Shown: positions 1-63,273 of the stretch, piece after piece | Layout of the letters: each line of letters opens with the position of its first letter | How positions within the stretch are numbered: position 1 is the first letter of the stretch | NCBI GenBank assembly: GCA_937921525.1 | Contig: CAKZUM010000021.1 | Coordinates: 1 to 64,000, forward strand | Length of the DNA stretch: 64,000 bases | From: an uncultured Saprospiraceae bacterium | GTDB lineage: Bacteria > Bacteroidota > Bacteroidia > Chitinophagales > Saprospiraceae | Reading direction: 5' to 3' | Program-made: the position numbers and the translations under genes | Notes under the pieces: generated by a model | What the model was told of the DNA's origin: nothing | Databases searched by the model: none | What the model saw: only the letters and a program-made list of their open reading frames with translations

Positions 1-212
1 AAATGCAGGAATGCCAGTAGGTTTAAATGTTTTTTTTCATAACTTGTAATCAGAATTAGTATAGTGAAGCAATATTGCTCTTACAAGGTACGCTTTTTTT
101 TAAAGCTGCGACGAAGGAGCTTTGTTCAACCTTGCATAGCCTTCCATAACCATTATGTATGGCTTAGTAGGCTATTCTTGACCGTTATGTGCAAGTAATA
201 AGAAAAATCAAA

Positions 213-1385
213 ATGAGTGAAAAACCAGAAAAGAAAAATATTTCTCAAGAGAGAACCAATAAAGAAAAAGTCATTATCGCTTTTTTTATTGGAGTTATAT
301 TTTCGATTTGTATAAGCTTATATGGATTGCATATGATTGCGGATAATGTTAAAGAGCTAATTGTTGGATTCATATTAATCGTTTCAATTCTAAGTATATT
401 ATTTTTCTTTATTACTCTAAATAAAGAATGGGTATTTAAGAAAGCTTTTGGAATTTCTCATTCAGATATTAATGACATAAAAACAACATCAACAGAATTA
501 TTAGGTAGTTTAGTTAAGAGAGATTGGAACAGAGCGGAACAAAAAATAGATGAAACTATTAGTAAAGCAAGTGCTTGGTATGTATGGATTTCTTATCGAA
601 GGTGGGTAATATTTGTTTTCTATTCTTTATTTATTGGATTTGCTGGATTGTTAGGTTCCGTACTCATTTATAATCAAAATAGAATCATTGAAAGACAAGA
701 TGTATTGCTTAGGGAACAAAATGGATTAATAAGTACTCAGACGATAGCTTTAACTTCAATCGAAAAAAGGAATTCAAATCTTACACAATTGAATAATGTA
801 ATTAACAGTATTGATGATGAGTTAAAATCTGACTATGGTTCTAATGCGACAAGAGATTTATCTCCTGAATTAATAGGAAGGATTTCTGCTTTAACAAATC
901 TATTTAAACCATACAAAGCAATTGAAGATGATACATTGTCTCAAACTATCAGCCTTGAAAGAGGTCAACTTTTGATATATTTAGTAAATAGTAATTTGTC
1001 AAAAGAAACGTATGATAATATCTACTCACAATCAGATTTTTCCTATTCAGAATTAAGGAATGCAACACTTAATAATAGATATTTCAAAAGAGTAAGGTTA
1101 AACAATTCCAGAATTGAGCAAGCATATCTCAATAATTCTGATTTTTCTAATGCGGAACTAAAAAATGTAAATTTCAAAAGAACCTCAAATCAATTCACAA
1201 AATTTGATGGAGCTAATATTAGAAATAGTAATTTTCAAAAAGCGTTATTGGATGGTGCTAACTTTAATCAAAGTATTTTAGATGATACAGACTTCACAAG
1301 TGCAACAATTAGAAATAGTAAATTTAATAATCTTAAATCTTCAAAAGGTATAAAAATTGATGATTCCAGAATACTTAATAAATAA
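213..1385 (+). CDS. Membrane protein with C-terminal pentapeptide repeats
   Basis: ORF 189..1385; ATG at 213 (MSEKPEKK) preferred over the GTG at 189. N-terminal TM segments, C-terminal pentapeptide-like runs (SDFSNAELKNVNF, GANIRNSNFQKALLDGANFNQS). Confidence 0.8.
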   Translation: MSEKPEKKNISQERTNKEKVIIAFFIGVIFSICISLYGLHMIADNVKELIVGFILIVSILSILFFFITLNKEWVFKKAFGISHSDINDIKTTSTELLGSLVKRDWNRAEQKIDETISKASAWYVWISYRRWVIFVFYSLFIGFAGLLGSVLIYNQNRIIERQDVLLREQNGLISTQTIALTSIEKRNSNLTQLNNVINSIDDELKSDYGSNATRDLSPELIGRISALTNLFKPYKAIEDDTLSQTISLERGQLLIYLVNSNLSKETYDNIYSQSDFSYSELRNATLNNRYFKRVRLNNSRIEQAYLNNSDFSNAELKNVNFKRTSNQFTKFDGANIRNSNFQKALLDGANFNQSILDDTDFTSATIRNSKFNNLKSSKGIKIDDSRILNK

Positions 1386-1387
1386 GA

Positions 1388-3304
1388 ATGAAGCAATTTG
1401 ACATATTTAGAATTAATTGTTGGCTTGAAGATTTAGAAGACCAGAAATATGAATCCTCTATAAGTGCGATTGCTAATGAATATTTGATGACCATAGAAAA
1501 TCAAGAATGTTTAAGAAATCAGATTTTTGATTTCATCAAAAATAATCTTGGTATTAGAATAAATTATGAAAAATTCAAAAAGATAATCAACAATGACCTT
1601 AATTACACAAAAGAAGCTTCTGACAATGATGTTTACGTTAGATTAAATGAAGAAGCAATTCAGAAATTTAGAGAACGAACTGAAAAACATTCAATAGAAA
1701 CCTTCATAAATAGATTTTGCAAGCAAAGTAAGTGGACTGAGTACGAAAAAAAAATCAAAAATCTATTTTTAAAAAGCTTATACATTAATATTAATTCTTT
1801 TGCAATCAATGACTTACGAACTCTGATTTCTGAAAGCATTAAAAAAGAAAATGAAAACCCTAAAGAAATTGAGGCTTTTAATTCTTTCTTAGAATGGGAA
1901 AATGATGAGAAGAATAAATCTATATATGCTTTATTCTCAAAATCAATTGAGTTTGCAATTCTTACCTCTGGACGAGGGGTATCTTCAATAGATAAAAGTA
2001 TATTTACTAATAAAACATATTATTTAGATACTAATATTATAATTAGAGCTTTAGGTGTTGACGGTCCACAAAGAAAAGATAGCACACTCTCAATAATTGA
2101 ATCATGCTGCCATGACGGGATAAAATTTAAAATTTCAAAAGTAACTTACGACGAAATATATAAGAATCTAAATAATAGAACTAAAGATGTAGCAAGAAAA
2201 ACAACTCCACAAAGCGAGGCCTTATTGACACAAATTATTGACGACCTGCCATTTAATAACTCATTTGAAACAGATTATTTGCATAAAAGGAAAGCAGGAA
2301 AGGTTAATTCACCAAATAAATATCGTTTAAGTTTGGAAAAGGAGTTTCAACAGTTATGTGATAGATTTGAAATTGTAACTGAACCTATAAAAGGGATAAA
2401 GCAAAGCGAATTGAAAGATTTACAGGACTACTTGCTTGAACAAAAAAAAATGAAATTAGGAAAATGGGCATATTCTATTGGTGCTGCTCAAGTTGATGCT
2501 AAAAATATTTTATATGTTAGACTGATAAGGGGTGCAAATAACTATAATTACAAAGATATCAAATCCTTTTATTTAACTACTGATACAACGTTGAATGACA
2601 TAATGGTAGATGTTGATAGAAATGTCATTGCAGAAACCATTCTTCCGTCACAGTTATTCGTCATACACAATTCATTTCACAAAAAAACGGAAGAAGATGA
2701 CTATAATGATTTCATTAAGTATATAAAAATTAGACGCACTGACTTCAAGTTACCTGGCAAAGAAATTTTTAATTTTATCGAGCAAGTTCAAGAATCCACT
2801 ACAAGTAAAGATGAAGTTGTATCAACAGTTAAAGCCTATGCTAATTTTCGATTTGAGAATAGATTTAATTCTTCAAGTAATTCTAAACAGAAAATGCCAA
2901 CAGTAAAAGAATTTACTGCAACTCATTTACAAAGAGAATTGGGTGAAGCCAAACTTCAAGTCCAGCAATTGGAGATTGCAAGAAAAGAGGCTATTAATAA
3001 TTTAGGGGTGATTTTTAAACGATCGAAATATGGAGCATACATTATAGAAGTTGTTATATTGTCAATCGTTGCACTATTAGTTCATCTTGTAAATAAAAAT
3101 ATTAGTAGCACTCTAACCGTTATTTTAGGAATCTTAATTTTTAGAGTTGTACTTCTCTTAATGAAGGATAAATTTGGGATAAATAAAGCAGTTAGAAATT
3201 TTTTATTTGACTTTCAACTGAAATTTGAGAGTTTCTATTCTGTACATCCTAATGATGAAAGTTACCTCAAAAAAATAGAAAAATATAAAGCAAACGCCAC
3301 ATAA
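1388..3304 (+). CDS. PIN-like domain protein with C-terminal transmembrane segments
   Basis: Starts 2 bp after the upstream ORF; YYLDTNIIIRAL motif and later acidic residues (YDEIYKN, TTDTTLND) typical of PIN domains; hydrophobic C-terminal helices (YIIEVVILSIVALLVHLV). Confidence 0.65.
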   Translation: MKQFDIFRINCWLEDLEDQKYESSISAIANEYLMTIENQECLRNQIFDFIKNNLGIRINYEKFKKIINNDLNYTKEASDNDVYVRLNEEAIQKFRERTEKHSIETFINRFCKQSKWTEYEKKIKNLFLKSLYININSFAINDLRTLISESIKKENENPKEIEAFNSFLEWENDEKNKSIYALFSKSIEFAILTSGRGVSSIDKSIFTNKTYYLDTNIIIRALGVDGPQRKDSTLSIIESCCHDGIKFKISKVTYDEIYKNLNNRTKDVARKTTPQSEALLTQIIDDLPFNNSFETDYLHKRKAGKVNSPNKYRLSLEKEFQQLCDRFEIVTEPIKGIKQSELKDLQDYLLEQKKMKLGKWAYSIGAAQVDAKNILYVRLIRGANNYNYKDIKSFYLTTDTTLNDIMVDVDRNVIAETILPSQLFVIHNSFHKKTEEDDYNDFIKYIKIRRTDFKLPGKEIFNFIEQVQESTTSKDEVVSTVKAYANFRFENRFNSSSNSKQKMPTVKEFTATHLQRELGEAKLQVQQLEIARKEAINNLGVIFKRSKYGAYIIEVVILSIVALLVHLVNKNISSTLTVILGILIFRVVLLLMKDKFGINKAVRNFLFDFQLKFESFYSVHPNDESYLKKIEKYKANAT

Positions 3305-3522
3305 CAATCAACGGCTCGATAGGAGAATAAGAGAATATGCATATAGTAATGTTTAGCAGGAATCCTTTCTTTATTCTGACTCCAAGGGAAAGGCCAAGGG
3401 ACATGTGTGCATAGTGGTATGATCTCCTTGGCGTTACCTGTAAGAAAAGTTTAATGAAAGTACCTTCAATATACCACAGACATCAAAAAAAACAATAAGC
3501 AACAATTAATCGAATAAATCAT

Positions 3523-4254
3523 ATGCTTAGTAAAATTCTAAAATCACCTCTTACCTACTCGATTTTATTTTTGATATTTCTTTTTTGTCTTATTGAGCGA
3601 AGAGCTTCTAACCAATTAAATGTAATTCCAACAGAATTAGAAAAACGACATTCTACAAATAGTAAAGAATCAAAAACACAAGATTTGAAAAGACAAATAA
3701 TTAATAATGAACTTAAGCGCTCTGAATCAAATCGAAAAATAATTACAAATAAGATTTCCAAGATACAAAAGATAATGACATCACAGACTCTGCCGCAATT
3801 AAAAGAACTGTCAAATTCTTATGAAGATCTTTTAGACGTAACCAATATATTCGTAAAAGCGAACAGCAGTGAGATAGTAACCATACAGGAAGAATTCACA
3901 AATGTTTTTTCGCAATTAGATTCTAATAATAGTCTTGTAAGGGACTCCAATGATTCCATTCGGTCTGTGATTGGTGATATAAATTTGCATGAAAATTCTA
4001 ATTTTCGATTTCTAGAACAATATCTGAGTAACCTTACAAATCCATTTTTGCAATTACTTATTCAAGTAGGAAATTCACAAACAGACTCAAATGGTAGACC
4101 AATCATTTTAATGCATAATGCGCTTATAGTCGCCAAAAATGAATCAGAACGTATTAAGATCAGAGATTATGTAAAGCGTTGGCATAGTGAAACAAAGCAT
4201 AATATAGATAGATTCTATGAAGTTGTAGAGAAAATGAAAAAAATATCAAACTAA
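3523..4254 (+). CDS. Membrane-anchored coiled-coil hypothetical protein
   Basis: N-terminal TM (LTYSILFLIFLFCLI) then long charged helical region; 3 bp before the next ORF. Confidence 0.6.
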   Translation: MLSKILKSPLTYSILFLIFLFCLIERRASNQLNVIPTELEKRHSTNSKESKTQDLKRQIINNELKRSESNRKIITNKISKIQKIMTSQTLPQLKELSNSYEDLLDVTNIFVKANSSEIVTIQEEFTNVFSQLDSNNSLVRDSNDSIRSVIGDINLHENSNFRFLEQYLSNLTNPFLQLLIQVGNSQTDSNGRPIILMHNALIVAKNESERIKIRDYVKRWHSETKHNIDRFYEVVEKMKKISN

Positions 4255-4257
4255 AAC

Positions 4258-5505
4258 ATGAAGAAATATTTCATTTTCTTACTAGGATTGTTAGGTGGAG
4301 TCACCCTCTGTATTTTACTATATGAGTACGGCTTAGAATTTATTGTTAACTACTTTGATGATTCAATAGTTACATACATTCTTATCTCATTAATTCTACT
4401 TTCAGCGGCATTGGCTGTATTCTTTGCTGTTGATAAATCAATAACTAAGCTTGAAGATTCATTATTGGTTGAACCAGAAATAGACTTCAATAAAATTATT
4501 AAGGAGCGAAAATGGAACTCAATTAACCTACTAATAAAAAAGAATCAGAAAAAGGTTCTGGCAATGTATTCTCGTTTCAGTATTATGAACTGGACTTTTA
4601 GAGCGATTGGACTAATCATAGTTGGATTTGTTGGTCTATTGGGTTCTGTACTTTTGCACAATCAGAACGAACTAATAAAGAAGCAAAATATAAGACTCGA
4701 TCAACAAACTTATCTTCAAGAGGCAGAACGTAGAAGTTCATTGGTCTTTTTATTTAGTAACATAATGGATGCTATCAATGTGGAGATTTCAAACGACTAT
4801 AATCAAAATAATATTCGAGACTTGTCTCCTCAATTAACGGGAAGAATAATAGCCCTTGCGAATAGATTAAAACCGTATTACTTTATGCAAGGGGATTCTC
4901 TTATTGAAAGTCAAATAAGTCCAGAAAGAGGTCAATTACTTGTCACCCTGATTGAAAGTCATTTGGCAGATAGTACCTTTTCTCAGATAAAACAGCGGTC
5001 AAACTTTAGTTTTTCTGACTTAAATCAAGCCAACCTATCAGGAGTTGACTTAAGTGGAATAAATCTTAAGAATTCAAATATGGTAGGCGCAAATCTTTCT
5101 GGCGCGAAATTATATGGTTCAGATTTTACGGATTCAGATTTAAGTGGAGCAAATTTTTCTAATGCTAAGATACTTGAAACTATATTTGATGATGCAAATT
5201 TATATCGTTCTAATTTTAGAAAAGCAATGGGAACTACTCCTGTTTTTTCTAATTCAAATTTAACAAGATCTAACTTGCAGGATACTAAATTTGATATACC
5301 TATTTTTGACAATACAATTCTAGATAGTGTGATTGTTGATTGTGACTTTATAATTAATCTTATTCATCAAGAAGAGGAAAATGAAATGGATTTAGGAATT
5401 AATGCTATATTAGAAACGTATTCTCTTGATACAATTAAATCGCAAGACTATGAGAAATATAAACCTAGATGTAGATTTGTTAGCAAAGGGGCAAAAAATA
5501 ATTAG
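4258..5505 (+). CDS. Membrane protein with pentapeptide repeats, paralog of 213..1385
   Basis: Shared GFVGLLGSVLLHNQNELIKKQN, SPERGQLLVTLIESHL; classic A(N/D)LSG pentapeptides (ANLSGVDLSGINLKNSNMVGANLSGAKL). Confidence 0.85.
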   Translation: MKKYFIFLLGLLGGVTLCILLYEYGLEFIVNYFDDSIVTYILISLILLSAALAVFFAVDKSITKLEDSLLVEPEIDFNKIIKERKWNSINLLIKKNQKKVLAMYSRFSIMNWTFRAIGLIIVGFVGLLGSVLLHNQNELIKKQNIRLDQQTYLQEAERRSSLVFLFSNIMDAINVEISNDYNQNNIRDLSPQLTGRIIALANRLKPYYFMQGDSLIESQISPERGQLLVTLIESHLADSTFSQIKQRSNFSFSDLNQANLSGVDLSGINLKNSNMVGANLSGAKLYGSDFTDSDLSGANFSNAKILETIFDDANLYRSNFRKAMGTTPVFSNSNLTRSNLQDTKFDIPIFDNTILDSVIVDCDFIINLIHQEEENEMDLGINAILETYSLDTIKSQDYEKYKPRCRFVSKGAKNN

Positions 5506-5703: not shown

Positions 5704-6519
5704 CTATTCCCGTGAAAAATATTGCACCGCTTCCCGCATTTCCAATATACCCACCATCAACAACTCCGGATACCGATAAGTATAATAAGTCCAATCCAGT
5801 AATTCCTCCTGATGTGCTTTCTCATGCAAAGGGGTATAGATACCAAAATAACCGCACAAATATGCGGCACCCAATTCACATACAAGTTTCTCTTGATAGA
5901 AACCCGTAGGATATCGAAATAATAACTTATTAGGAGAAATTCGGTTCAAGTGTTGAGCACTCCCAGTCCAAGCAATCAAAGCTTTAAATAAATGCCAGTA
6001 GTAGTAGATAGAATCCTTTTTTATTACTGGAATTTTAACTACTTCTTTAGCAGCATCCCAATGAGCTATTCTATTAAGTGTTCTGTCAATAGGGACCGTT
6101 TGAAGTAGGGTAGTGAGCCATTTATCAATTTTAGTATACACTAACCGCTCTTCCAAGGATTGTTGGGGAATAGCAATATCAATTCCTTTGATAGAACTTA
6201 TATTATAGATAGGAAAACGTTTGACCTGATTAGAAGCAGTATAATATATAAATTCCGCTTTAGTATTCTTTTGAATTTTTCCACCTAGTTGCTGTACTTG
6301 TTTCCATGATAGATAATAGGGGAGGGGATAGTCCGTAGTAAAATTACAAAGCAGCCAACTAATACCATTAATATAACGTTGGTCGGTATAGGTACGAGCA
6401 ACACCATAGGGAGAAAAACCTTGTCGCCAAGGAATGATTCCTTGTTTCAGTAGGTTTAATATTCTAGCTTGAATGATGGGGAGATATGTATTAACTAGAG
6501 GTGTATTGATTTGCTGCAT
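5704..6519 (-). CDS. ArdC-like antirestriction protein (DUF1738-type N-domain) with degenerate zincin domain
   Basis: N-terminal YLPIIQARILNLLKQGIIPWRQGF...ARTYTDQRYINGISWLLC and C-terminal ELGAAYLCGYFGI match the ArdC family pattern. Confidence 0.75.
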   Translation of the reverse strand: MQQINTPLVNTYLPIIQARILNLLKQGIIPWRQGFSPYGVARTYTDQRYINGISWLLCNFTTDYPLPYYLSWKQVQQLGGKIQKNTKAEFIYYTASNQVKRFPIYNISSIKGIDIAIPQQSLEERLVYTKIDKWLTTLLQTVPIDRTLNRIAHWDAAKEVVKIPVIKKDSIYYYWHLFKALIAWTGSAQHLNRISPNKLLFRYPTGFYQEKLVCELGAAYLCGYFGIYTPLHEKAHQEELLDWTYYTYRYPELLMVGILEMREAVQYFSRE

Positions 6520-6529
6520 AATTTCAGTT

Positions 6530-7078
6530 TTAAAAATATACTCTAATACCCACCGCTAAAGCACCATTTCTGCCTAAATGATCGGTAAACATAAAACTAT
6601 TTCCAGCTCGTATATAAATAGACAGTTTTCTAGCCAGTGCCACATCTAGTTCTCCAAAAAACCGTAAACCTATACTTTCATTATTGATAGGGGTTTCTAA
6701 ATTTAATTGTTCCCGTCCAAACACCACACCACTCCCTAAATAGATGCTTAGATTATTTAGAGAGCTGTATTTGAGTCGTATTCCTTTAGCATAGGTCAGA
6801 CTAATTCGTTGTAGATTTAAGGACTCTATATTATACAAATCATCCGACTGCTTAGTTTTAGTATTATTCGCATAGACCAATCGGATTTCATCATAGATAT
6901 TCAAATGATAGTGTCCAGATACCTGAAATCCTTTAGTTAGTAAATGTCCTGCAGCAATAGAAAAGGAATTTGGAATGCGCTCTTGGGCGCTACTTGTTAT
7001 CGTAAATAATATCAAGACCCCTAATAGTGAAAATCTCATAGGCTTATTTAATTGGTTCATCTTATCTGATTGATTCAA
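6530..7078 (-). CDS. traO: Conjugative transposon TraO-like outer membrane protein
   Basis: Signal peptide, beta-barrel-like sequence, terminal YF, position after traN. Confidence 0.65.
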   Translation of the reverse strand: MNQSDKMNQLNKPMRFSLLGVLILFTITSSAQERIPNSFSIAAGHLLTKGFQVSGHYHLNIYDEIRLVYANNTKTKQSDDLYNIESLNLQRISLTYAKGIRLKYSSLNNLSIYLGSGVVFGREQLNLETPINNESIGLRFFGELDVALARKLSIYIRAGNSFMFTDHLGRNGALAVGIRVYF

Positions 7079-7982
7079 TCGGTAATTTGTTATAAGGGAT
7101 CGGCAAATAGATATTTCTACCTTCCTCTACTAACTCGATATAAAATATCTTTCCTTGTGGCACCGCTATTTTATCAAAGACCGCAACATAGGTATTGATC
7201 CTTTTAGGGGATACCCTAGATTCGTGATAATTAGCTATCAATAAAGGTGGAAAAATCGTCTCATTAATCGCTGATTTTTTCGGTCTTCTTTTATCTCGCA
7301 TTCCAAACTCCGTATAACTAATATCATAAGGGATAGCTCCTTGATTACGAACCTGATAGCTAATGAAACAATAGTCTTGACTATGATAGATACCTGTAAC
7401 TTTCAATAGAATATCTCCATGTCGTGCGCTGATGTAATCAAAGCGATTTTTATTCTTTAGTAGTCGTTCCGCTTTTTGTGATAGTTTATCTTGGTCTATA
7501 ACAGATTGAGGGGGTAAGTTTTTAGTAGAGCGATGATTTTTTTGGCTCGTAAAAATCACTTTTTGTTGTACTGGATTTGTTTTCTCTTCTTGTATATCAG
7601 AAGTATTATCCTGATTATCAATTGGTAAGCCTTTAATAGTCTTAGTTTGATCCTCTTCCAATAGCTGCTTAATACTATGACTGGTACGGATAAAGTAATT
7701 GAGTTTAGGACTTTCTGTGTACAAGACATAGAAACTATAGTAGTAATCATCCTTGGTAATGACAGTTAAATTGGTCCTACGCTGGCTTTTGAGCCCCTTT
7801 ACCCTCAAAATGTTATTGGTGTAACTGACAATAAAATTATCATTGTCTCCAATATCGGTATAGAGTATATCAGAAGGGAAAATTAAATGAGAAGTTTGAT
7901 TCTCTCTAATCTCAATCGTCTGGGATTGAGAGAAGGCAAATGGACCAATCAATAATAGAAAGTAAAATAGATATTTGCGCAT
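7062..7982 (-). CDS. traN: Conjugative transposon protein TraN (DUF4138-like)
   Basis: Signal peptide then HLIFPSDILYTDIGDNDNFIVSYTNNILRVKG; synteny with traM/traK. Confidence 0.75.
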   Translation of the reverse strand: MRKYLFYFLLLIGPFAFSQSQTIEIRENQTSHLIFPSDILYTDIGDNDNFIVSYTNNILRVKGLKSQRRTNLTVITKDDYYYSFYVLYTESPKLNYFIRTSHSIKQLLEEDQTKTIKGLPIDNQDNTSDIQEEKTNPVQQKVIFTSQKNHRSTKNLPPQSVIDQDKLSQKAERLLKNKNRFDYISARHGDILLKVTGIYHSQDYCFISYQVRNQGAIPYDISYTEFGMRDKRRPKKSAINETIFPPLLIANYHESRVSPKRINTYVAVFDKIAVPQGKIFYIELVEEGRNIYLPIPYNKLPIESIR

Positions 7983-7987
7983 AGCAT

Positions 7988-9310
7988 TTAGTTTAAATTT
8001 CGATCATATAGCATGACCTGGTAACCAGAAGGAATAGTTGCACCACTCGTTCTATAGGCTTTTCTGCCTAAACGTAGAGAAAGATTACCCAAGGGATTTC
8101 TGATACCCAGACTACCCGCTTCTCGAAGCCCCTCCCGAATAGCTTCTTGTCCGACATCAATATCAGCTCCTTCTACATAAATACCAGGCATCCCATCTAA
8201 GTCATAGACTTCTAAAGCAGAACGGACGACTCGTTGATTGATATTAATAGAGGATACCTGAATTTTAATTCTATTACTGACCGAACAAATACCGTATAGT
8301 ATTTGGTTTGTTTTAATGAGGTATCCTTTATAGTCCCCTCCTTCAGTAATTCTTAAACGGACCTTATCCCCAGATTTTAATTTTTGAGGTCTATCAATAA
8401 TTGCATAGAGTGGGGTATTGTCAGATTGTTCTTTTAAGTAATTGACATTGATAGGTACAGGGTCTTCCGAATAAGAGACCCTCTTTTTGATTAAGCCTAG
8501 ATCATCTTTAACACCCGTATTGGTATCAAACTGTAGTCTATGGGGTTTAGTTTTTTTATTATTACTGGTACCTCTATTGCCACTAGCATTATAATTAGGT
8601 TCACTATGGTAGTCAGGCTCACCATGAAAAGCAGCATACCGGCGTTCATGATCTTCGAGCCCTTTACGATAGGCAGCCGCTTCCACGTCTAAAGTACTTT
8701 CGTCCAGTGCTTTTCGCCTACGTCGATTATCTGCTTTCGCAGCGGCTAATCGAGCTTTTCGTTGCTTTTCTAAATGCGCATAATTACTAGGTTGCTCTTT
8801 TTCGATATTTGCCAAGGTATATTTGATATCCTCCATCGTTTCCAAAGAATCAGGACGAATAGAAATACGATTGATGGGCTGATCTTCTTGGCTCGCTAAA
8901 TTATTCGTGGCACTAGGATTGATCTGAGGATTAAGATTGGCATCAAAGGTAATTGGTACATCGTCTTTTGTTCCCATACTCTTAGCATAGTCTGACCGCT
9001 CCAAAGTTCGCTTCACTTTTTTCATCAAAAAGTTATCATTCTTATCCGACTTGATTAATTCCTCCTTACTCATCGAAAAGACCTCACTCGCCTTGGTCCG
9101 AGTAGCGATGTAATTAATATCCTTTTGCAAGCCAACAGCGACGGATGCTTCTTGAATCGTCTTTTTTACTTTGGCTGATTGATGCACATAGATATAGACT
9201 GCACCACCCACTAACCAAAGTAAGATGGGGGTCAACCATAATAACTTATTGTCTTTAAAGTTTTTAAAATTAAAATTCTTAAAAACCTCGCTTAGTTTTT
9301 TCTTGTCCAT
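7988..9310 (-). CDS. traM: Conjugative transposon protein TraM (VirB10-like position)
   Basis: Single N-terminal TM, low-complexity middle, conserved C-terminal domain; synteny. Confidence 0.75.
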   Translation of the reverse strand: MDKKKLSEVFKNFNFKNFKDNKLLWLTPILLWLVGGAVYIYVHQSAKVKKTIQEASVAVGLQKDINYIATRTKASEVFSMSKEELIKSDKNDNFLMKKVKRTLERSDYAKSMGTKDDVPITFDANLNPQINPSATNNLASQEDQPINRISIRPDSLETMEDIKYTLANIEKEQPSNYAHLEKQRKARLAAAKADNRRRRKALDESTLDVEAAAYRKGLEDHERRYAAFHGEPDYHSEPNYNASGNRGTSNNKKTKPHRLQFDTNTGVKDDLGLIKKRVSYSEDPVPINVNYLKEQSDNTPLYAIIDRPQKLKSGDKVRLRITEGGDYKGYLIKTNQILYGICSVSNRIKIQVSSININQRVVRSALEVYDLDGMPGIYVEGADIDVGQEAIREGLREAGSLGIRNPLGNLSLRLGRKAYRTSGATIPSGYQVMLYDRNLN

Positions 9311-9316
9311 AGGGTG

Positions 9317-10042
9317 TTACTTTTGTTCTCTTTCGACAAATCGAAGGCGGTTATTTTTTAAGACCACATAGTTTCCAATGAGTAAGCCATGCGGGTTGAG
9401 ATCGGTCCGAGCTACTTCTCGTAAGTCAAGGGTGGTAACTAAGTTTTTTACTAAGAAACCAACCGAGGTTTGCACGACTTCTTTTCCATATTGGACTGCC
9501 TTATAAGGGTAAATCTTAGTGTTGACTTTTACAGAGTCCAAAGTGTACTTGATTTCGGCACTATTAGAAATCAATTTCTTGTAATAGGCATCCCCCCGTT
9601 TATCTAAAAAAGCCTTTACCGAAGCATCCCCCATTAATAGTACCTCATTGAGGGACTTTTCAATTTCACTAGGATCAGGAGAAATATCATAGAGTAGAGA
9701 ATGAAAAGTCCGAACTTGTGCCTTCACTTCCGCCTCCCTATTTTCATTGGCAGCAATTTGATAAGCGGTCAAGGTATTCCCATAGCCATTGGTAATATAG
9801 ATTTTACCTTTTCCCTTGGAGACCATCGACATGGCAACGACCATTACGGTCACGCCAAATAGAAAGGAGAGGGCTAGGGATAAAATAGCGATCAAACGAG
9901 TTTTCTTAAAAGCAGTATCAATATTCATAAGGCAATCTAATCTTTGTGTGGTAGCAGGGGTATGCTCTGCATCACTTATTATAGGTGTATCTGGTTTAGT
10001 AGTTTTCTTCTTTGGTCTAAAGGATTCCCAAATTTTTTTCAT
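9317..10042 (-). CDS. traK: Conjugative transposon protein TraK (VirB8-like)
   Basis: N-terminal TM and FHSLLYDISPDPSEIEKSLNEVLLMGDASVKAFLD typical of TraK; synteny. Confidence 0.75.
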   Translation of the reverse strand: MKKIWESFRPKKKTTKPDTPIISDAEHTPATTQRLDCLMNIDTAFKKTRLIAILSLALSFLFGVTVMVVAMSMVSKGKGKIYITNGYGNTLTAYQIAANENREAEVKAQVRTFHSLLYDISPDPSEIEKSLNEVLLMGDASVKAFLDKRGDAYYKKLISNSAEIKYTLDSVKVNTKIYPYKAVQYGKEVVQTSVGFLVKNLVTTLDLREVARTDLNPHGLLIGNYVVLKNNRLRFVEREQK

Positions 10043-10112
10043 CGTCTTTCAAATTTATAGGTGTATAAGATTTACGTCTCACTTGTCATTATCAATTTTC
10101 AATTTTTAATTT

Positions 10113-11102
10113 TCACCTCTTATATAAGGTGTCCTTCGCAATCGCCCTTCCTGCACTAGCCACCCCTCTAGTAGCAGCAGTTGTTAATAAAGCGCCTGCT
10201 CGACCCATCCCAGAACCTGAAATAACCCAACTAGCCACAATAGGAATAGTGAGATACCCAGCGATCAGTACGAGTAAGAAGATCCAAGACCAAGTGGTTA
10301 GAATGACAGAATTGACCGAATCTTCTAAACCAAGCCCTCTAGTCCAAAAGCCGCCATTCTCCACAATGACTCGCCAAATTCGCACCGCCATTGCTTCAAA
10401 AATATTCCCAATGCCGAGCCATAGATGAACGCTGAGATAGCGACCTAACCAGCGCATATAATTAGATTCAAAGCCTGGGAACATACTTATACCAATAACT
10501 AGAGGACCACAGATATATAAGACGACCAGAATAAAAACTCGTAAAGCATTAATAATAATGAGGATCGCATGGGAGAGTCGAAAGAGAATTTCTTCAATAA
10601 AGCGCATTAATGCATAGTAGAATTTTTCCCCAACCCATTTAAAGACATTTAGACTTCCAGAAACGGCATCCGTTAATTCATCCACCAAACTCGCTTCCTC
10701 TTCTCCTTCCTCTGCATGAATATCTTCGATCCCTAGTAAGTTATCATCATTGTCTGTTTCCGGATCTAAATCTCTAGTTTTTAAAATATCTGTTACTCGA
10801 TATTCATCCGTAATCATTGCTTGACCTAGAGAAGTATTAACGGCCATGGCTATACCATCAATAACCAACATAAACTGTGGATAGAGCATTAGCACTAAAG
10901 CCAAGACAAAAGGACGCAAGACTTTTAGACTAAATAAATCTCCTCCACCAAGCATGGCATTATAAGCTAGCAATGCAGTATATAATAAAGCACCAATAGC
11001 GCCTATGGCTCGACCAACAATGACGACATCTGCTGCAATTAGAATCAAATCATTGCGAATGATCTCTAGTACTATTTGAATATTAAAAAAGCCATCTTCC
11101 AT
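10113..11102 (-). CDS. traJ: Conjugative transposon protein TraJ (VirB6-like polytopic membrane protein)
   Basis: Multiple TM helices; position between TraI-like genes and traK. Confidence 0.7.
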   Translation of the reverse strand: MEDGFFNIQIVLEIIRNDLILIAADVVIVGRAIGAIGALLYTALLAYNAMLGGGDLFSLKVLRPFVLALVLMLYPQFMLVIDGIAMAVNTSLGQAMITDEYRVTDILKTRDLDPETDNDDNLLGIEDIHAEEGEEEASLVDELTDAVSGSLNVFKWVGEKFYYALMRFIEEILFRLSHAILIIINALRVFILVVLYICGPLVIGISMFPGFESNYMRWLGRYLSVHLWLGIGNIFEAMAVRIWRVIVENGGFWTRGLGLEDSVNSVILTTWSWIFLLVLIAGYLTIPIVASWVISGSGMGRAGALLTTAATRGVASAGRAIAKDTLYKR

Positions 11103-11181
11103 GTGAGGTGATTGTTTAATTGTTCAATTGCCTGATTGCTTGATTGTCAATCAAGCAATCGAATAATCCGACCATCTTTTC

Positions 11182-11790
11182 CTATTCAAAAAGATTCGTA
11201 AATACTTCTAATTCTTTTTGCTGTCTTTTAATTGCATAGAGGTGTCTATTGGTTCGACGCACTGTGGCATACATGGAGCGCTTAATCCGTTTGGCTTCTT
11301 TCAAAGAATGCTTAATTAATTCAATTCGTCCCTTGTCATCAATGATCCCTTTGTTTTGTTGAGTCGCTAAATCGAATAATTCAAAAACCTGTTGCGCTTC
11401 CAAGAATAATTGTCCCAAAATCCAACGGTACTTCCACTTATCTGTAAAATCCTCCGCAGCATCTAATCTTTCTAAAGAGCGCATGTATAGTTTAATAATA
11501 TCCTTTTCTACTTCAATTAGTTCTTTGGTCATCTTTAGATTCTTCACGACCGCAGAGACTATATCACTAGCGACCTTAAAGAATTCTTGCACCTTTGAAA
11601 TCTTTTCAATAAAACCATTTTCTAATAAGGCTTTGATACCAGTAGACACAGATGCAGAGTAGGCTTCTGTGGCACTAGTCTTCGTATGCTCTGAATCTAT
11701 GACAACAGTTACTTGTGCTAGAGTTCTAGATGAAGTAGCCACACAAAGAAAAAGTATCAGTAATAGTATCAATAGGATTCGCTGTATCAT
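11182..11790 (-). CDS. TraI-like conjugal transfer protein, paralog 1
   Basis: Signal peptide; conserved KWKYRWILGQLFLEAQQVFELF and terminal LEVFTNLF shared with four downstream-numbered paralogs; TraI position. Confidence 0.6.
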   Translation of the reverse strand: MIQRILLILLLILFLCVATSSRTLAQVTVVIDSEHTKTSATEAYSASVSTGIKALLENGFIEKISKVQEFFKVASDIVSAVVKNLKMTKELIEVEKDIIKLYMRSLERLDAAEDFTDKWKYRWILGQLFLEAQQVFELFDLATQQNKGIIDDKGRIELIKHSLKEAKRIKRSMYATVRRTNRHLYAIKRQQKELEVFTNLFE

Positions 11791-11826
11791 AGATTAATTG
11801 ATTTACAGATATATGATCCAAAAGAC

Positions 11827-12486
11827 TTAACCAAATAGGTTATCAAAAACCTCTGCCTCTTTTTCTAACCTTCTATATTGATAAATCTCTCGATTGATTC
11901 GACGCAGTTGTAAGCGCATCGCACTTTTAATTTTCAATAAACCTCGATGTGTTTCTATTAGAAATTGAACCCTGCCACTATCGTCCAATGTCAAGGCATC
12001 CTCTTCAATCAATTGATTGAATAATTCAAAAGCTCCTGTTGCTTCTGTACTCAATGCTAATAGTATTTGTGCATGTTTCCATTTATCCAGAAAATCTAAA
12101 TCATCTACGCCATCCACATCGGTATCCACTGGCGTATTCAAAACCGCAATAGATTGAGCATAGAGCTGAAGAATATCTTGATGGGTATCAATAATTCGTT
12201 CCACCGTCCTCATATTCTGAATAACTGCCTTAACCGCAGTATGTGCTTTTTGAAAAAATCGCTGGACATTTCTAAAAGTCTTTACTAATGGTTCCGCCGT
12301 TTGCTTAATAAATTGAGACGCCTGCTGCACTACACTAGTGGTCCTACTTAACCAGCGACCTAAATAATCTGCAGTAGGCACTTGGGAAGTGGCCAGAGAG
12401 ATCGGCACTAGTTGAAAGAGTAGCATCAAACAAAGGGAACGTATTAAGCTTCTAGTAAATAGACTCATTATAGTAAGTAGACTCAT
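11827..12486 (-). CDS. TraI-like conjugal transfer protein, paralog 2 (Asp-rich loop)
   Basis: FLDKWKHAQILLALSTEATGAFELF core plus VDTDVDGVDDLDF insertion. Confidence 0.6.
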   Translation of the reverse strand: MSLLTIMSLFTRSLIRSLCLMLLFQLVPISLATSQVPTADYLGRWLSRTTSVVQQASQFIKQTAEPLVKTFRNVQRFFQKAHTAVKAVIQNMRTVERIIDTHQDILQLYAQSIAVLNTPVDTDVDGVDDLDFLDKWKHAQILLALSTEATGAFELFNQLIEEDALTLDDSGRVQFLIETHRGLLKIKSAMRLQLRRINREIYQYRRLEKEAEVFDNLFG

Positions 12487-12491
12487 TATTA

Positions 12492-13154
12492 TTAATTTTC
12501 AAAGAAAGCCTCGAAAGTTTGAATCTCTCGATCTAACTTTCGATACTGATAAATTTCCTTATTGATTCTTCGTAATTGTAAACGCATAGCCGCTTTAATC
12601 TTCCGCATATCCCGATACGTTTTCTCAATGAGCATAATGCGCCCTTTATCATTAATGGTCATGGCATCATCTTCGATAAGGGTTTCAAATAATTCAAAGA
12701 CACTGGCGGACTCTTTCACTAGTGCTAAGAGTATTTGTGCATGTTTCCATTTGTCCAAGAAATCATTGTCTTGATCTTCATTCAATGCGCTTAGAGACCG
12801 ATCATAGAGTTCTACAATATCGCGTTCCAGTTCTACAATCTTTTTGACCATCCTCATATTTTGAATAGCCCCATTGACAATGGTACTGGCTTTTCTAAAA
12901 AAATCCTGTACATCTTTAATGGTTTCCTGTAGCGGTTTTTCTCTTTCTAACAAGAATAGATGTGTTCCCTCCACAACACTATTAGTAGTATTGGGAGCTA
13001 ATAGTCCATTATCCATGACTGCACCAACTGGAATCTGTGTGAAGCCAGACACGCTGATTACTAGATAGAAGAGTAGGGTAGTGCCTCTTCTTCCAAGAGG
13101 ATTTATCTGTTTACTAAATGTAGATTTACTCTTCATCCCCAAACAATCTATCAA
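12492..13154 (-). CDS. TraI-like conjugal transfer protein, paralog 3
   Basis: DFLDKWKHAQILLALVKESASVFELF core and terminal FEAFFEN; shortened acidic loop. Confidence 0.6.
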   Translation of the reverse strand: MIDCLGMKSKSTFSKQINPLGRRGTTLLFYLVISVSGFTQIPVGAVMDNGLLAPNTTNSVVEGTHLFLLEREKPLQETIKDVQDFFRKASTIVNGAIQNMRMVKKIVELERDIVELYDRSLSALNEDQDNDFLDKWKHAQILLALVKESASVFELFETLIEDDAMTINDKGRIMLIEKTYRDMRKIKAAMRLQLRRINKEIYQYRKLDREIQTFEAFFEN

Positions 13155-13740
13155 AGACCTCCAATTCCTTTTTAGTCCTTTGAATTTCTGAAAACTCTTT
13201 ATTGATTCGTCTTACTGCCACACGCAAAGAGGTATACACTTTTCTAGCCTTTTTTAGACTATCTCTAACTAGGATGATTCGATTCTCATCATCCATTGTA
13301 CCCTGTTCCTGTATGGCAATATTGAATACATTAAAGAGATCGAGTGATTCCTTATAAACTTCATAGAGGATGATCCGATGTTTCCATTTTTCTTCAAAGC
13401 TTTCTGCTTGATCTAATTTCTGAATACTACTGCTAAATAGTTTATTGATCTTATTCTCCATTGCGATCAGATCATTGACCATTCCTAAGTTTTTCACGAC
13501 TATATTCACCTTCTGACTTGCCTGCTGAAAAAACTGCTGTACCTTAGATATTCGATCTTTCCAAGGAAGAATATCTTCTCGAATCGCCCTAGAAGCATTA
13601 GCGACTACTTTAGCAATTGCACCAATTGCATTATTGGCTACATCAATAACAGGAGAGGCAAGTATCTGTGCATTGGTGTTCGGCGCATACGCCACATTGA
13701 AAAACAAAATAAGTGCTGTTAAAAGGCATAGTCTTTTCAT
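13126..13740 (-). CDS. TraI-like conjugal transfer protein, paralog 4
   Basis: EEKWKHRIILYEVYKESLDLFNVF core, terminal LEVFDRLFG; overlaps the next paralog. Confidence 0.6.
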   Translation of the reverse strand: MKRLCLLTALILFFNVAYAPNTNAQILASPVIDVANNAIGAIAKVVANASRAIREDILPWKDRISKVQQFFQQASQKVNIVVKNLGMVNDLIAMENKINKLFSSSIQKLDQAESFEEKWKHRIILYEVYKESLDLFNVFNIAIQEQGTMDDENRIILVRDSLKKARKVYTSLRVAVRRINKEFSEIQRTKKELEVFDRLFGDEE

Positions 13741-13751
13741 CTAATCAATTT

Positions 13752-14393
13752 TTAAGAGCCAAAGAATTCGTCAAATATTTCCAGTTCTTTTCTAACTCGG
13801 CGATATTCATAAATCTCCCGATTGATTCTTCGTATTTGGGTCTTAATAGCCGACTTAATTTTAAAGCTATCATTATAGGCATCCTTGATTATGGTTAATC
13901 GACCTCGATCATCCATAATCATCGCATCCTCCTCGATTACATTTTTGAAAAGCTCAAAGACCCCATCTGCTTCCGCTGCAATTCCTAAGAGAATTTGTAT
14001 ATGCTTCCATTTATCTAAAAAATCTAGATCATCAATACCATCGCCATCTTCATCCAAAGGCTCGTTTAGTCGATTAATAGATTGGCTGACTAAGCGAGCT
14101 ATATCTTTTTCTTGTTCAATTAGCGCTTTTACCAGCTGTATATTTTTCACTACACCACTAACAATCGTAGAAGCCTTAGACATAAATTCCTGGAGCTCCT
14201 TGATGTTTTCCACCGCTAGAACTACTCGCTGATTAATAACCAAAGAAGCCTTTTGTACATCTTCTAAAATTTTACTCCACCCATTATGCTTTTTATCCCT
14301 TACAGGCACCTGCCCAGAAATAGTCGACAATGCCAGGAAAGAAAGCAACAGCAGAAATAGCAATCTTCTAATAGTGTTTATTTCAAAAAACAT
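13752..14393 (-). CDS. TraI-like conjugal transfer protein, paralog 5 (Asp-rich loop)
   Basis: DFLDKWKHIQILLGIAAEADGVFELF core plus LDEDGDGIDDLDF insertion. Confidence 0.6.
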   Translation of the reverse strand: MFFEINTIRRLLFLLLLSFLALSTISGQVPVRDKKHNGWSKILEDVQKASLVINQRVVLAVENIKELQEFMSKASTIVSGVVKNIQLVKALIEQEKDIARLVSQSINRLNEPLDEDGDGIDDLDFLDKWKHIQILLGIAAEADGVFELFKNVIEEDAMIMDDRGRLTIIKDAYNDSFKIKSAIKTQIRRINREIYEYRRVRKELEIFDEFFGS

Positions 14394-14449
14394 AGTTTTC
14401 CAGTTAAGCGTTTTACCTATTACTTTTTACTTCTTACCTATTACTTAGA

Positions 14450-15013
14450 TTAGGCACTAGACTCAATCCCCTTAAACACAATCGCCTTATAATTTTTATC
14501 ATTGCTAATTAGCGCATTTTGTACCTGCTCCTTGATATAGCGAATAAATTCTTGGGTATCTTTTGGTTTGACAGATGGATTCTCGCCTCGCAACACCTGA
14601 TGCACTCGAATAATCCCAATACCCACTACCGCCAAATCAATTTTAAATTTAGCATACTGGATTTGTCGCAAGAAAAAGGCTTTCTCCTGTCCAACATCAA
14701 ATACCGTTTCTAATTCTTCTTTAAAAGAGGATTGGTCTACTGGTTTTACCTCACTTATTAGATCTAGCCGAATCTCTTCATTGGTTTGAGCGAAATCTTT
14801 ACTAGCCTGTGTAAATTCCTGATAACTCGTATGGACCTCTTGAAAAGGCGTAGTCGTTTTCGTTTTCATCGCCTCCAAGTTTTCTAAGAGCGCATCTATA
14901 CCTTTTTCCTCAGCCTGGGCTATGGTCGCTTCTGTACGTTGCTGCTGACAAGCAAAGAACACACTATAAATAAGACATAGCACTGCCAGTATCCTTATGG
15001 GTAATTTCTTCAT
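14450..15013 (-). CDS. Lipoprotein of the transfer operon, unknown function
   Basis: Lipobox-like YSVFFACQQQ; located between TraG and the TraI-like cluster. Confidence 0.6.
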   Translation of the reverse strand: MKKLPIRILAVLCLIYSVFFACQQQRTEATIAQAEEKGIDALLENLEAMKTKTTTPFQEVHTSYQEFTQASKDFAQTNEEIRLDLISEVKPVDQSSFKEELETVFDVGQEKAFFLRQIQYAKFKIDLAVVGIGIIRVHQVLRGENPSVKPKDTQEFIRYIKEQVQNALISNDKNYKAIVFKGIESSA

Positions 15014-15083
15014 AATGATCTATTTTTTTGAAATGATAATCGTATTAATTGAGTGGTATCGAGTCGTCTAAGACTCTTAGTCT

Positions 15084-17477
15084 TTAGTCGTCTAAGTACT
15101 TAATAATCGCATACTCTAGATCTCCTGTTTCCTCCGCTATCGCATCTATTTCCACACTATCCGCAGCTTCTGTTGTAAACATGGCTGCTTCTTGTGGAGA
15201 GACTAAAACAGAATATACTTTCCCTGCACTCCCAAATCGAATATAGACATCTTTAAACCGCTCTCCAGTTCGAGGCACTTTATTAATGCTCATGACCTTT
15301 TTAGTCTCACTGGCTTGTAGTCCCAATAATTTAGCTAGTTCCTCAAAACGAGTCTGGTACTTGGTTTGATCGAGTAGTATTTGTATATCCGCATTATTTA
15401 AGATCGTATTCTTAACAAAAGGATTACCGACAATATCTTCTAGTTCTTGAGTGATAATACCAACAGCACCGTTGAACTTCCGCACCGTCTTATACAAATA
15501 TTTTAAAAAGTTCGCCATCCCTGTATTAGAAATAGCAGACCAAGCCTCTTCAATCAAAATGATCTTACGTACCTTTTTATGCTTCCTCATCTTGGCAATG
15601 AAGGCTTCCATAATAACCAAAGCTACCACAGGAAAGATCACCGAGTGATCTTTAATCTCGTCTAATTCAAATACACAGAAAGGTAAATCGGCAATAGAGA
15701 ACTCCTCTTTAGAATTGAGTAGATAATCATACTCGCCACCTTTATAATAAGGCTTCAAGACCATTTTAAAAGAAACGATGTCAAAATACTTTTTCTCATC
15801 CTCTCCGATCATTTGAGAAAATTCTCCTTGTACAAATTCATAAAAGGAATTGAAATTACTAGTCGCTTTCTGTGTTTGAATGTATTTATAGTAGGTCAGA
15901 ATACATTTACTTAAAATTGTGTATTCCTCTTTACTGGCTTCCTTACTTTCTCCTTTCCATAGGGTAAAGATCAAGGTCTTTAAAGATTCTTGCTCTTCGA
16001 GATTCTTAGATTCATTGGGTGCAACATAGAATGGGTTAAACGCCATTTTTGATTTAGCGGTATACTCAAAGTATTTACCATTCATGTAATTACAGAGCCG
16101 GCGATAAGAACCACCTACATCTATAATGGTAATATGGTATTGCTGCTCTAGTAACTGGCGCACCATATTATTAACAAAAAAGGATTTTCCAGAACCAGAA
16201 GGTCCTAATACAAACATATTTCGATTCGTGATTAAGCCCTTTTTCATGGGTAGATCCCACATATCAATCGTGATCGGAATTCCATAATCTCTTTCACTGA
16301 GTTTAATTCCATCAATTCCGGAATTTTTAGGATTAGTCTCAATCGGTATATACATCGTCGCTGTTTCTGAAAACTGGATTTGAAATTCACTTAAAGGGAT
16401 ATCTCCAGCATTCCCAGGGGTACAACCCCAAAAGACAGTGGCACAGTTAAAATTCCGTTGGGCAAAGCAATCCATTTTAGCCAGCGCATTATTCAACTCG
16501 TTTTCTGCTTTTTCTAATGCTTTCCCTTTACCCCAAAGCATTACATTCTGACTGACATAGACCGGATCTTTTCCATCCCGCAGTTGCACTGATAGGAATT
16601 CATCAAATTCATCTACTGCTTTTTCATTCTCTCGACTCTTAAAAGTCATAGACTTTAATTTCTCTCTACGCCGAGATAAGTCTTTTCCCATCTTATTGGG
16701 ATCATGTTTAACAATAATCGTGTTCACAATATGAGGGTAGGTAAAACCAATCCCAATAGAGTAGGAGTAGGACCGATCAAAGAAATCATCAATATTATTT
16801 TGACTATCTACTTCCAAAGGCATATCTACATCAGGCGCAATAGTATTATAAAGTACTACTTCATCGTCTCCAATTTTAATATGATCCTTTTCGACAAACA
16901 AATCTTTTAGGATGCGCTGATTACCGAGATTATAATATTCATTTAATAAGGTAACGAGTTGCCTGCCTTCCAACTGCTGAACGCCCAAGCCATTTCCATT
17001 AATAATGGTACTAGAAAGAATATGCTGAATTTTACGAACGACATTACTAAATTCAGGAATCCCATCTAATATATCCCGTTTGATGAGTCGACCCGTAACG
17101 AAGCTAGTCATCAAGTTAGAAACAAAGGTATCTGCAATAGGGACTTTGGTAATAATGATGTACGTCCGATGATTCAAAAATGGTCTGCCTTGAAAAACAG
17201 ATTCATAGGCATTGGATAGGAAAGTAGTACCTTGTTCCCCTCGATCATAATGCTTAGTAATAAAGTAATCTTGCTTGTGAAAGACATAGCCTTTTGGGAG
17301 TGCCTTAATGATTCTACTGAATAGTTCATACATGCCTTCCAATTGTTCTTCAGATAGACTATAGGCTTCTGGCATGTTTAATTCTAGCACCACAGAAATA
17401 GCCTGTGTCTTACTAATGGCAAAACCATTTTCTATTTTCCAAATAGGAATTCGTTCACTTAAATTGATGGTTCTCAT
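15084..17477 (-). CDS. traG: TraG-family conjugation ATPase (VirB4-like)
   Basis: Walker A GPSGSGKSFFVNN, Walker B-like KIILIEEAWSAI, TraG-family length (797 aa). Confidence 0.93.
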   Translation of the reverse strand: MRTINLSERIPIWKIENGFAISKTQAISVVLELNMPEAYSLSEEQLEGMYELFSRIIKALPKGYVFHKQDYFITKHYDRGEQGTTFLSNAYESVFQGRPFLNHRTYIIITKVPIADTFVSNLMTSFVTGRLIKRDILDGIPEFSNVVRKIQHILSSTIINGNGLGVQQLEGRQLVTLLNEYYNLGNQRILKDLFVEKDHIKIGDDEVVLYNTIAPDVDMPLEVDSQNNIDDFFDRSYSYSIGIGFTYPHIVNTIIVKHDPNKMGKDLSRRREKLKSMTFKSRENEKAVDEFDEFLSVQLRDGKDPVYVSQNVMLWGKGKALEKAENELNNALAKMDCFAQRNFNCATVFWGCTPGNAGDIPLSEFQIQFSETATMYIPIETNPKNSGIDGIKLSERDYGIPITIDMWDLPMKKGLITNRNMFVLGPSGSGKSFFVNNMVRQLLEQQYHITIIDVGGSYRRLCNYMNGKYFEYTAKSKMAFNPFYVAPNESKNLEEQESLKTLIFTLWKGESKEASKEEYTILSKCILTYYKYIQTQKATSNFNSFYEFVQGEFSQMIGEDEKKYFDIVSFKMVLKPYYKGGEYDYLLNSKEEFSIADLPFCVFELDEIKDHSVIFPVVALVIMEAFIAKMRKHKKVRKIILIEEAWSAISNTGMANFLKYLYKTVRKFNGAVGIITQELEDIVGNPFVKNTILNNADIQILLDQTKYQTRFEELAKLLGLQASETKKVMSINKVPRTGERFKDVYIRFGSAGKVYSVLVSPQEAAMFTTEAADSVEIDAIAEETGDLEYAIIKYLDD

Positions 17478-22565: not shown

Positions 22566-23816
22566 ATGATTTCAAATATTACTTCAGGAAACAGTTTTTA
22601 TGATGTGGCGATGTACAATCAAAAGAAAGTAAATCAGCAGGAGGCGAGTATATTATATAGTCAAAAATTAAGAGGCACGAAACCAGAAACCTTACAAAAA
22701 GCCTTTCAAAATTATAATTTATCCATTAGCACAAAACCCGTTATTCATGTTTCTTTAAGCTTTGCGCGAGAAGATGAAGGGCAATTAACTGATGAGAAGA
22801 TGGTAGCCCTAAGTCAAGAATATTTACAGAAGATGGGCTATGGCAAACAACCATATATTATATATAGACACTTTGATACACCTCATCCACATGTTCATAT
22901 ATTAAGTACAAGGGTTGACATTGAAACGCAAAAGCGAATTAATGATAGTTTTGATTATATCCGTTCCAAGCAAATAACAGAGAAAATGGAGCAGACATAC
23001 GGACTAACAAAAGCAGATCAACAAACCAGTATTAAATCAAAATTGGTAGATCATCTCCAGTCTGCCTTTCAAAAAGACAGACCTGAAAATATTACCCAAT
23101 TAAATCAAAGCCTAGAAAAACGGAATCTACCTGTACGAGCTAGAGAAACTCAAAAAGGATTGATTTATCACGGAGTAAGGGAGGATGGAGTGAGGCACTC
23201 TAAATACTATCGGTCTTCGATTTATAAGGAGGTAGGCTTAGATGCCCCTAGTTTGCAAGCCCAATTCCAGCAGAATATTCAGGCTAAACAATATTTAAAA
23301 ACCGCTATTGAGCAAGCGCTACCCCAAGAAGGAAAAACGAGTATTGGACTATTTTCCAAAGAGCTTCAATCAAAAGGGATACTTACAGATTTTAGAGTTA
23401 AGCCAGATGACACTATTAATATCAGTTACCAATACAAAGACCATGTATACAAGGATGCAGTTATAAAAACAAATGCACAGGAACAATTAGTCTTTCCAAC
23501 CCCCCAAGACTATCATCTAAGAGAACAATTGACCCGATCCATTGCGGCTAATGAACCTTTAGAATTAGGTTATGAGAATGGTAAAGTTACAGTTACGACT
23601 CCTGATCCAGTATTAGAAAAAGAATTGAATAAACGGTCCAATGGAGAAATTTTAGCCTTATCAGATTTTCATAAAGAATACCGATCAGAATATCAACAGG
23701 CAGGTAATTCTGGTATCCGAAACGCAGTACTTGCTTTAGCTGCCACCGATATAGACGATTCCCTACAGGAACAAATTAATAGAGAACGAATCGATCAAAG
23801 AGAGATCAGGAGATAA
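22566..23816 (+). CDS. mobB: Relaxase/mobilization nuclease (MobB-like)
   Basis: HxDTPHPHVHILSTRVD histidine triad motif; N-terminal relaxase fold residues. Confidence 0.9.
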   Translation: MISNITSGNSFYDVAMYNQKKVNQQEASILYSQKLRGTKPETLQKAFQNYNLSISTKPVIHVSLSFAREDEGQLTDEKMVALSQEYLQKMGYGKQPYIIYRHFDTPHPHVHILSTRVDIETQKRINDSFDYIRSKQITEKMEQTYGLTKADQQTSIKSKLVDHLQSAFQKDRPENITQLNQSLEKRNLPVRARETQKGLIYHGVREDGVRHSKYYRSSIYKEVGLDAPSLQAQFQQNIQAKQYLKTAIEQALPQEGKTSIGLFSKELQSKGILTDFRVKPDDTINISYQYKDHVYKDAVIKTNAQEQLVFPTPQDYHLREQLTRSIAANEPLELGYENGKVTVTTPDPVLEKELNKRSNGEILALSDFHKEYRSEYQQAGNSGIRNAVLALAATDIDDSLQEQINRERIDQREIRR

Positions 23817-23832
23817 CTAATTACAACTAACT

Positions 23833-57176: not shown

Positions 57177-57244
57177 ACCATTTTTGCAGGATACCTATGT
57201 CCGCACGTCTCCTTTTTATTGGTTTAACTAAACATTACTTTAAT

Positions 57245-61555: not shown

Positions 61556-61568
61556 AAATATTTCTATC

Positions 61569-62846: not shown

Positions 62847-62859
62847 AATCTAATTTCCT

Positions 62860-63273
62860 ATGGAGCAAGTAAATAAAATTTTAGAACAAAAAGCTGTCCG
62901 CATCACCCCGATGCGACAGCTACTATTGGAATACTTCTTACAAAATAACGGAGCATTTGGTTTGATGGAGCTGGAAAATGCCTTTCCAAAATCAGATAGG
63001 ATTACTATGTACCGTACCCTCAAAACATTTGAAGAAAAAGGACTTATTCATGGCATTAATAATGGAGCAAGTGAAATAAAATATGCTTTATGTAGGGAAC
63101 ATTGTTCCCCCATTCATCACATTGACCAGCATCCGCATTTTCAATGTGAGCAATGTAGGCAGATAACTTGTATTAATAGTCAGGTCATTCCAAAAATGGA
63201 ACTTCCTAAAGGCTATGTCCAAAAAGAAATGACGATGATGATAAAAGGTGTTTGCCCAAATTGTCAAGGCTAA
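62860..63273 (+). CDS. Fur-family regulator (Zur-like by context)
   Basis: RITPMRQLLLEYFL, ITMYRTLKTFEEKGLI, HPHFQCEQCRQITC, CPNC. Confidence 0.88.
   Translation: MEQVNKILEQKAVRITPMRQLLLEYFLQNNGAFGLMELENAFPKSDRITMYRTLKTFEEKGLIHGINNGASEIKYALCREHCSPIHHIDQHPHFQCEQCRQITCINSQVIPKMELPKGYVQKEMTMMIKGVCPNCQG

Follow-up and report, generated by a model that had tools for sequence, protein, structure and literature searches.

A probable PIN-domain protein with a predicted membrane anchor, encoded beside a transmembrane pentapeptide-repeat protein at the edge of the transfer region of a Bacteroidota conjugative element

The stretch of DNA analyzed here (64,000 nucleotides; hereafter the window) comes from an uncultured Saprospiraceae bacterium (assembly GCA_937921525.1, contig CAKZUM010000021.1) and begins where contig C21 begins, in a 5.26-Mb source genome assembled as 772 contigs. 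Its first four genes, A, PIN, C and B, form two closely spaced pairs, in each of which a gene for a pentapeptide-repeat protein with transmembrane (TM) segments adjoins a gene for a different membrane protein. We tentatively favor the reading that PIN encodes a membrane-anchored defense nuclease, with A as an optional modulator on the envelope side. This reading builds on the homology of the pentapeptide proteins, the domain content and predicted topology of the products, the tight gene spacing and the defense-island company of PIN relatives; nuclease activity, its target, contact between A and PIN, and sensing are proposals.

Results

All four genes lie on the + strand. A (213..1385; alternative start codon, GTG 189) encodes a 390-aa three-TM pentapeptide-repeat protein, PIN (1388..3304) a 638-aa protein, C (3523..4254) a 243-aa protein with a single N-terminal TM segment by hydropathy (aa 5-23) and a polar C-terminal part, and B (4258..5505) a 415-aa three-TM pentapeptide-repeat protein homologous to A. 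The stop codon of A (1385) is separated by 2 bp from the ATG of PIN (1388) and that of C (4254) by 3 bp from the ATG of B (4258), as an earlier reading of this DNA (the original prediction) had described. The 2-bp spacing suggests that A and PIN may share one transcript and be translationally coupled. The two units are 218 bp apart and have reversed gene orders, the pentapeptide gene being first in the A-PIN unit and last in the C-B unit.

The 638-aa protein very probably belongs to the PIN domain proteins, and its putative activity is that of a nuclease. It consists of a winged-helix-like N-terminus, a helical region, the PIN domain (aa ~205-405), a long helix and a C-terminal TM hairpin (aa 550-592 by hydropathy). 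When compared with Pfam in isolation, aa 205-408 matched three PIN models (PIN_12, E=1.9e-5; PIN, 1.6e-3; PIN_3, 0.015), and the acidic residues D214, E256, D370 and D399 were invariant, in the PIN order D-E-D-D, in an alignment of homologs down to ~28% identity. Together with the TM hairpin, these features bear out the original description of a PIN-like protein with C-terminal TM segments; charge bias placed both termini inside in five of six homologs. An AlphaFold2 model built from four sequences (pLDDT 69) showed the helix-helix-helix-strand-strand pattern of a winged helix at the N-terminus, followed by a PIN-like alpha/beta order around the acidic residues, the long helix and two C-terminal membrane helices. 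In Foldseek, this model matched winged-helix proteins with a probability of up to 0.99 and, weakly, the PIN-superfamily nucleases FEN1, EXO1, XPG and HARP, none of them at E<0.001. No match of the PIN region was found among Protein Data Bank sequences, nor any Pfam match of the protein to GIY-YIG or DUF4041, the domains of the defense nuclease SNIPE.

Homologs of the PIN protein are rare. They were detected in 4 of 396 genomes of the phylum, the window's own genome counted, and one of these four matches is partial, lies in an apparent sensor histidine kinase open reading frame (ORF) and is probably unrelated. Elsewhere, homologs occurred in 2 of 345 class genomes, at three loci among GTDB contigs and on two Hymenobacter plasmids, with L016 and L036 representing one Balneolaceae locus and L019 and L037 one plasmid; none was found in viral contigs. 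The company of these relatives supports a stand-alone defense nuclease. The PIN relative lies directly upstream of QatABCD on a Hymenobacter monticola plasmid, near a TIR protein, SIR2 and a short Argonaute on a Hymenobacter qilianensis plasmid, and next to an OLD/Gabija-like ATPase within a type I restriction-modification island at L022; the QatABCD, short Argonaute-SIR2-TIR and type I restriction-modification neighbors were matched by PADLOC models. A distant relative (L107; 98 profile positions matched) lies beside a gene whose N-terminus, read by eye, resembles a restriction helicase, and the PIN genes of L035 and L036 stand alone, their neighbors being housekeeping or metal genes. On each of the two Hymenobacter plasmids (L019, 3844-5692; L020, 5067-5561), PIN is preceded by a P63C-domain gene; in L019, read by eye, this gene comes after one for an HTH-like protein and a short one resembling part of an ImmA/IrrE-type peptidase. 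The suggested role in defense or conflict thus finds support in defense islands around PIN relatives, as judged from gene neighborhoods.

A and B have the common architecture that had been ascribed to them. They are 34% identical over 348 aa (E=1e-49; 36% in a global alignment), and the shared part runs from the third TM segment (GFxGLLGSVL, within the motif GFxGLLGSVLxxNQN) through a helical stretch, the motif RDLSPxLxGRIxALxNxxKPY and the linker SxERGQLL to the pentapeptide repeats, which were matched by Pfam models above cut-offs in both proteins. Hydropathy gave three TM segments in each, and the counts of lysine and arginine around them (12 v 4 in A, 8 v 3 in B), read by the simple positive-inside rule and not by a trained predictor, place both N-termini inside; the pentapeptide tails are therefore predicted to lie outside, in the periplasm. 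By the same counts, most three-TM relatives have this topology; those with a single TM segment are ambiguous, and L089 runs counter to it. The term 'twin' modules holds for homology and not for closest kinship: the core of B is 55% identical to the solitary L077 protein from another family versus 43% to A, which rules out a recent duplication. A predicted structure of B from two sequences (pLDDT 52) was unusable. Identity with HalA of the Hailong system was rejected, the match reaching 17 bits against a curated cut-off of 250 and involving the repeats alone, and a weak CBASS 2TM match was dismissed.

A and B belong to a family of TM-linked pentapeptide proteins that is widespread in Bacteroidota: a five-row core profile, searched against the 345 class genomes, had matches in 13 at E<1e-10 and in 21 at E<=0.001. 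A scan of genome contigs with a two-row alignment gave a null result that is not evidence of absence, as it used automatic patterns on variable stretches; no homologs were found in plasmids, phages or viral contigs, the viral scan likewise being weak because its patterns covered variable stretches. Among 15 relatives whose neighborhoods were inspected, 9 adjoin a 307-348-aa protein by motif search, which overlooked a similar gene in L088; this protein matched DUF6973 weakly in all five cases tested (E 8e-6 to 3e-3), and GH28 and/or GH106 genes are also near many of the relatives. A conserved cluster recurs across several Bacteroidota families, with a TM-pentapeptide gene, an opposite-strand DUF6973-like gene and often GH28/GH106 (L079, L081, L083, L084, L086, L087 and L089; also L082, L085 and L088). 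Outside the repeats, its pentapeptide proteins are most conserved in their SPERGQLL-type linker. In L081, the pentapeptide gene is apparently in two ORFs (7249-8025 and 8067-8489), a result of frameshift, decay or assembly error.

The linkage of a TM-linked pentapeptide protein to a Bacteroidetes Min-Wnt/glycoside-hydrolase cluster has already been published (PMC12419801, section 28), and we infer that DUF6973 is the Min-Wnt domain of that study. Loci L079, L081, L083, L084, L086, L087 and L089, with DUF6973-like and GH28 and/or GH106 genes, reproduce the published cluster, and its pentapeptide protein is built like the relatives found here, with TM segments, a SPERGQLL-type linker and a pentapeptide run; A and B have TM segments, a homologous linker and a pentapeptide run. 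In our tree, however, A and B fall into a separate clade with L031, L032, L077, L078 and L080 (support 100/99). None of these five has an adjacent DUF6973 gene; L031, L032, L077 and L080 are solitary, and L078, which may lie within a mobile element, has a restriction-enzyme-like protein nearby. A and B themselves lie on a mobile element, next to the PIN protein and C, and no DUF6973/Min-Wnt, GH28 or GH106 gene was found around them in the window. Because these genes are absent at A and B and present in most sister-group loci, the proteins are homologous, as their sequences indicate, but the gene cluster is not the same.

Downstream of B lie an ArdC-like antirestriction gene at the end of a transfer region (5704..6519, - strand; ArdcN, E=2.1e-7), Bacteroidota conjugative-transposon transfer genes for DUF4138/TraN-like, TraM, TraJ-like and TraG proteins (7062..17477, - strand), and the relaxase and coupling protein of the same element (22566..25710, + strand). 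The A-PIN-C-B genes are therefore cargo of a Bacteroidota conjugative element and border its transfer region on one side; their other side lies beyond the contig end. Such a location beside transfer genes, together with the predicted periplasmic tails, would suit entry or surface exclusion, in which A and B, acting from the periplasm, would keep out incoming elements or phages with no need of PIN. We consider this quite unlikely: most family members are found in other settings, many of them beside glycoside hydrolases and not transfer genes. An Rfam search gave no match above the gathering score.

A short inverted repeat encloses the A-PIN unit, with a left end, GTTATGTGC (184..192), as a possible cassette boundary and a right end, CACATAAC (3298..3305), that overlaps the PIN stop codon. 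The PIN gene of L035 is likewise flanked, by GTTAGGTGG just before 8001 and CCACCTAAC at the stop codon near 9908, and is followed by a strong hairpin (z=-3.65). Compared with the A-PIN ends (GTTATGTG/CACATAAC), those of L035 differ by a change on one side that is matched on the other, which is how the ends of an integron cassette would vary. The case for such a cassette is nevertheless weak. Relative to a reversed-pattern control, the genome of the window has no excess of the cassette-end motif, and the phylum sample has a slight one at most, with four inspected loci there proving to be coding or chance matches. Repeated sites were not found in the genomes, the L035 site having no second copy in its own; no integron integrase was found above the cut-off, and 24 of 337 background ORFs are flanked by an 8-bp inverted repeat. 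On G000:C46 (L043, L051), a 622-aa tyrosine recombinase whose N-terminus is extended by a long stretch matched the integron-integrase model below the cut-off.

Farther along the window (57197-63273; also L023), we noted by eye genes for RND efflux-like proteins, a membrane-fusion-like protein whose start is rich in His, and a Fur-like regulator, and next on the contig a metal-ATPase-like gene; these together suggest metal-resistance genes downstream.

Discussion

In the mechanism that we tentatively favor, the winged helix and the PIN domain would face the cytoplasm, and the C-terminal TM hairpin would anchor the protein to the inner membrane. There it might cut nucleic acid, probably RNA, at the membrane or after infection, and so guard the host and the element against phages or rival elements. 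It should be able to work without A, since relatives occur without A. The latter, presumably co-transcribed with PIN, would be an inner-membrane protein with a predicted periplasmic pentapeptide solenoid, as would B, beside C; in this element, A might tune or position the nuclease through membrane contacts, relaying envelope disturbance.

Several observations weigh against this proposal. The Pfam PIN matches fall under the curated cut-offs, the structural model has low confidence at aa 396-457, Foldseek returned no match at E<0.001, and neither PADLOC nor NCBIfam has a model matching the protein. Moreover, none of the inspected neighborhoods of PIN relatives holds a pentapeptide gene, which argues against obligatory pairing with A and leaves their functional coupling resting on a single locus. 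A conserved A-PIN pairing was not found in the phylum, class and GTDB-contig neighborhoods that were inspected.

Nearly as likely is that the genes are accidental neighbors, PIN being a stand-alone defense nuclease and A, B and C unrelated envelope proteins that have accumulated in one cargo slot, whose compactness would explain the tight spacing. The occurrence of PIN relatives without A, the solitary state of same-clade relatives of A and B (L031, L032, L077 and L080) and the reversed gene order of the two units all fit this explanation, as does C, an orphan in 346 genomes: no convincing relative was found there (the best match, at E=4e-4, was weak and had internal stops), and plasmids gave no match. 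Chance would, however, have to account for a pentapeptide gene lying 2-3 bp from a membrane-protein gene twice running and for the joint enclosure of A and PIN by the inverted repeat.

The original prediction had also envisaged a common membrane scaffold with exchangeable effectors. The shared membrane/pentapeptide module stands, but the recurrent pairing with varied partners that it implied was not found, with a recognizable PIN or C partner beside 0 of the 15 pentapeptide relatives. The Min-Wnt/glycoside-hydrolase cluster (PMC12419801) lends the scaffold idea indirect help, although the neighbors there are one fixed set and not varied effectors. More broadly, TM-linked pentapeptide proteins might be a general Bacteroidota envelope-sensing module for trans-envelope defense signaling, with a lipid-attacking Min-Wnt/DUF6973 protein as effector in chromosomal clusters, the PIN nuclease here and C in the C-B pair; we regard this as a speculative and improbable extension.

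PIN is the fold of the toxin VapC, a small single-domain cytosolic protein paired with a small antitoxin, VapB, and most PIN enzymes act on RNA. The window protein shares with VapC the four conserved acidic residues and probably the fold, and two genes 2 bp apart with the putative antidote first would suit a toxin-antitoxin-like arrangement, in which A keeps a toxic PIN protein inactive at the membrane. We give this little credence. The protein is 638 aa long and multidomain, has its own membrane anchor and lacks a VapB-like partner; A, unlike VapB, is large and membrane-bound, with a tail predicted to be periplasmic; and PIN relatives are present without any A-like gene. The small PIN toxin with an obligatory antitoxin that defines type II systems is not what we found, as the relatives share no common partner gene.

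The membrane-anchored defense nuclease that we favor has analogies among described systems. DS-3 and DS-5, PIN-ribonuclease defense systems identified with DefensePredictor, defend without a classical antitoxin, and for DS-3 it is proposed that auto-inhibition lasts until infection (PMC13092281). Compared by description, DS-5 is likewise a two-protein system with a PIN domain, its partner being DUF5830/AcrIF4-like where ours is a pentapeptide protein, whereas in DS-3 the PIN domain is split between the termini (PMC13092281). SNIPE, a membrane-bound GIY-YIG nuclease tethered to the inner membrane, cuts phage DNA at entry (PMC13190303). It resembles the window protein in its tether and in a catalytic part that is cytoplasmic (here by prediction), a likeness of analogy and not homology (PMC13190303), and differs in having a GIY-YIG fold and an N-terminal anchor in place of a probable PIN fold and a C-terminal one. 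All three are analogies and not memberships.

PIN proteins and TM-pentapeptide proteins were both already known, and their pairing is seen at this locus alone. If the coupling is true, a periplasm-facing repeat protein would be linked across the inner membrane to a cytoplasmic nuclease, an arrangement with few precedents by which phage entry could be sensed. If it is not, the winged helix-PIN-TM family is still a defense candidate outside the coverage of the PADLOC models used, and the conserved SPERGQLL linker provides a handle on a widespread, uncharacterized family of pentapeptide proteins.

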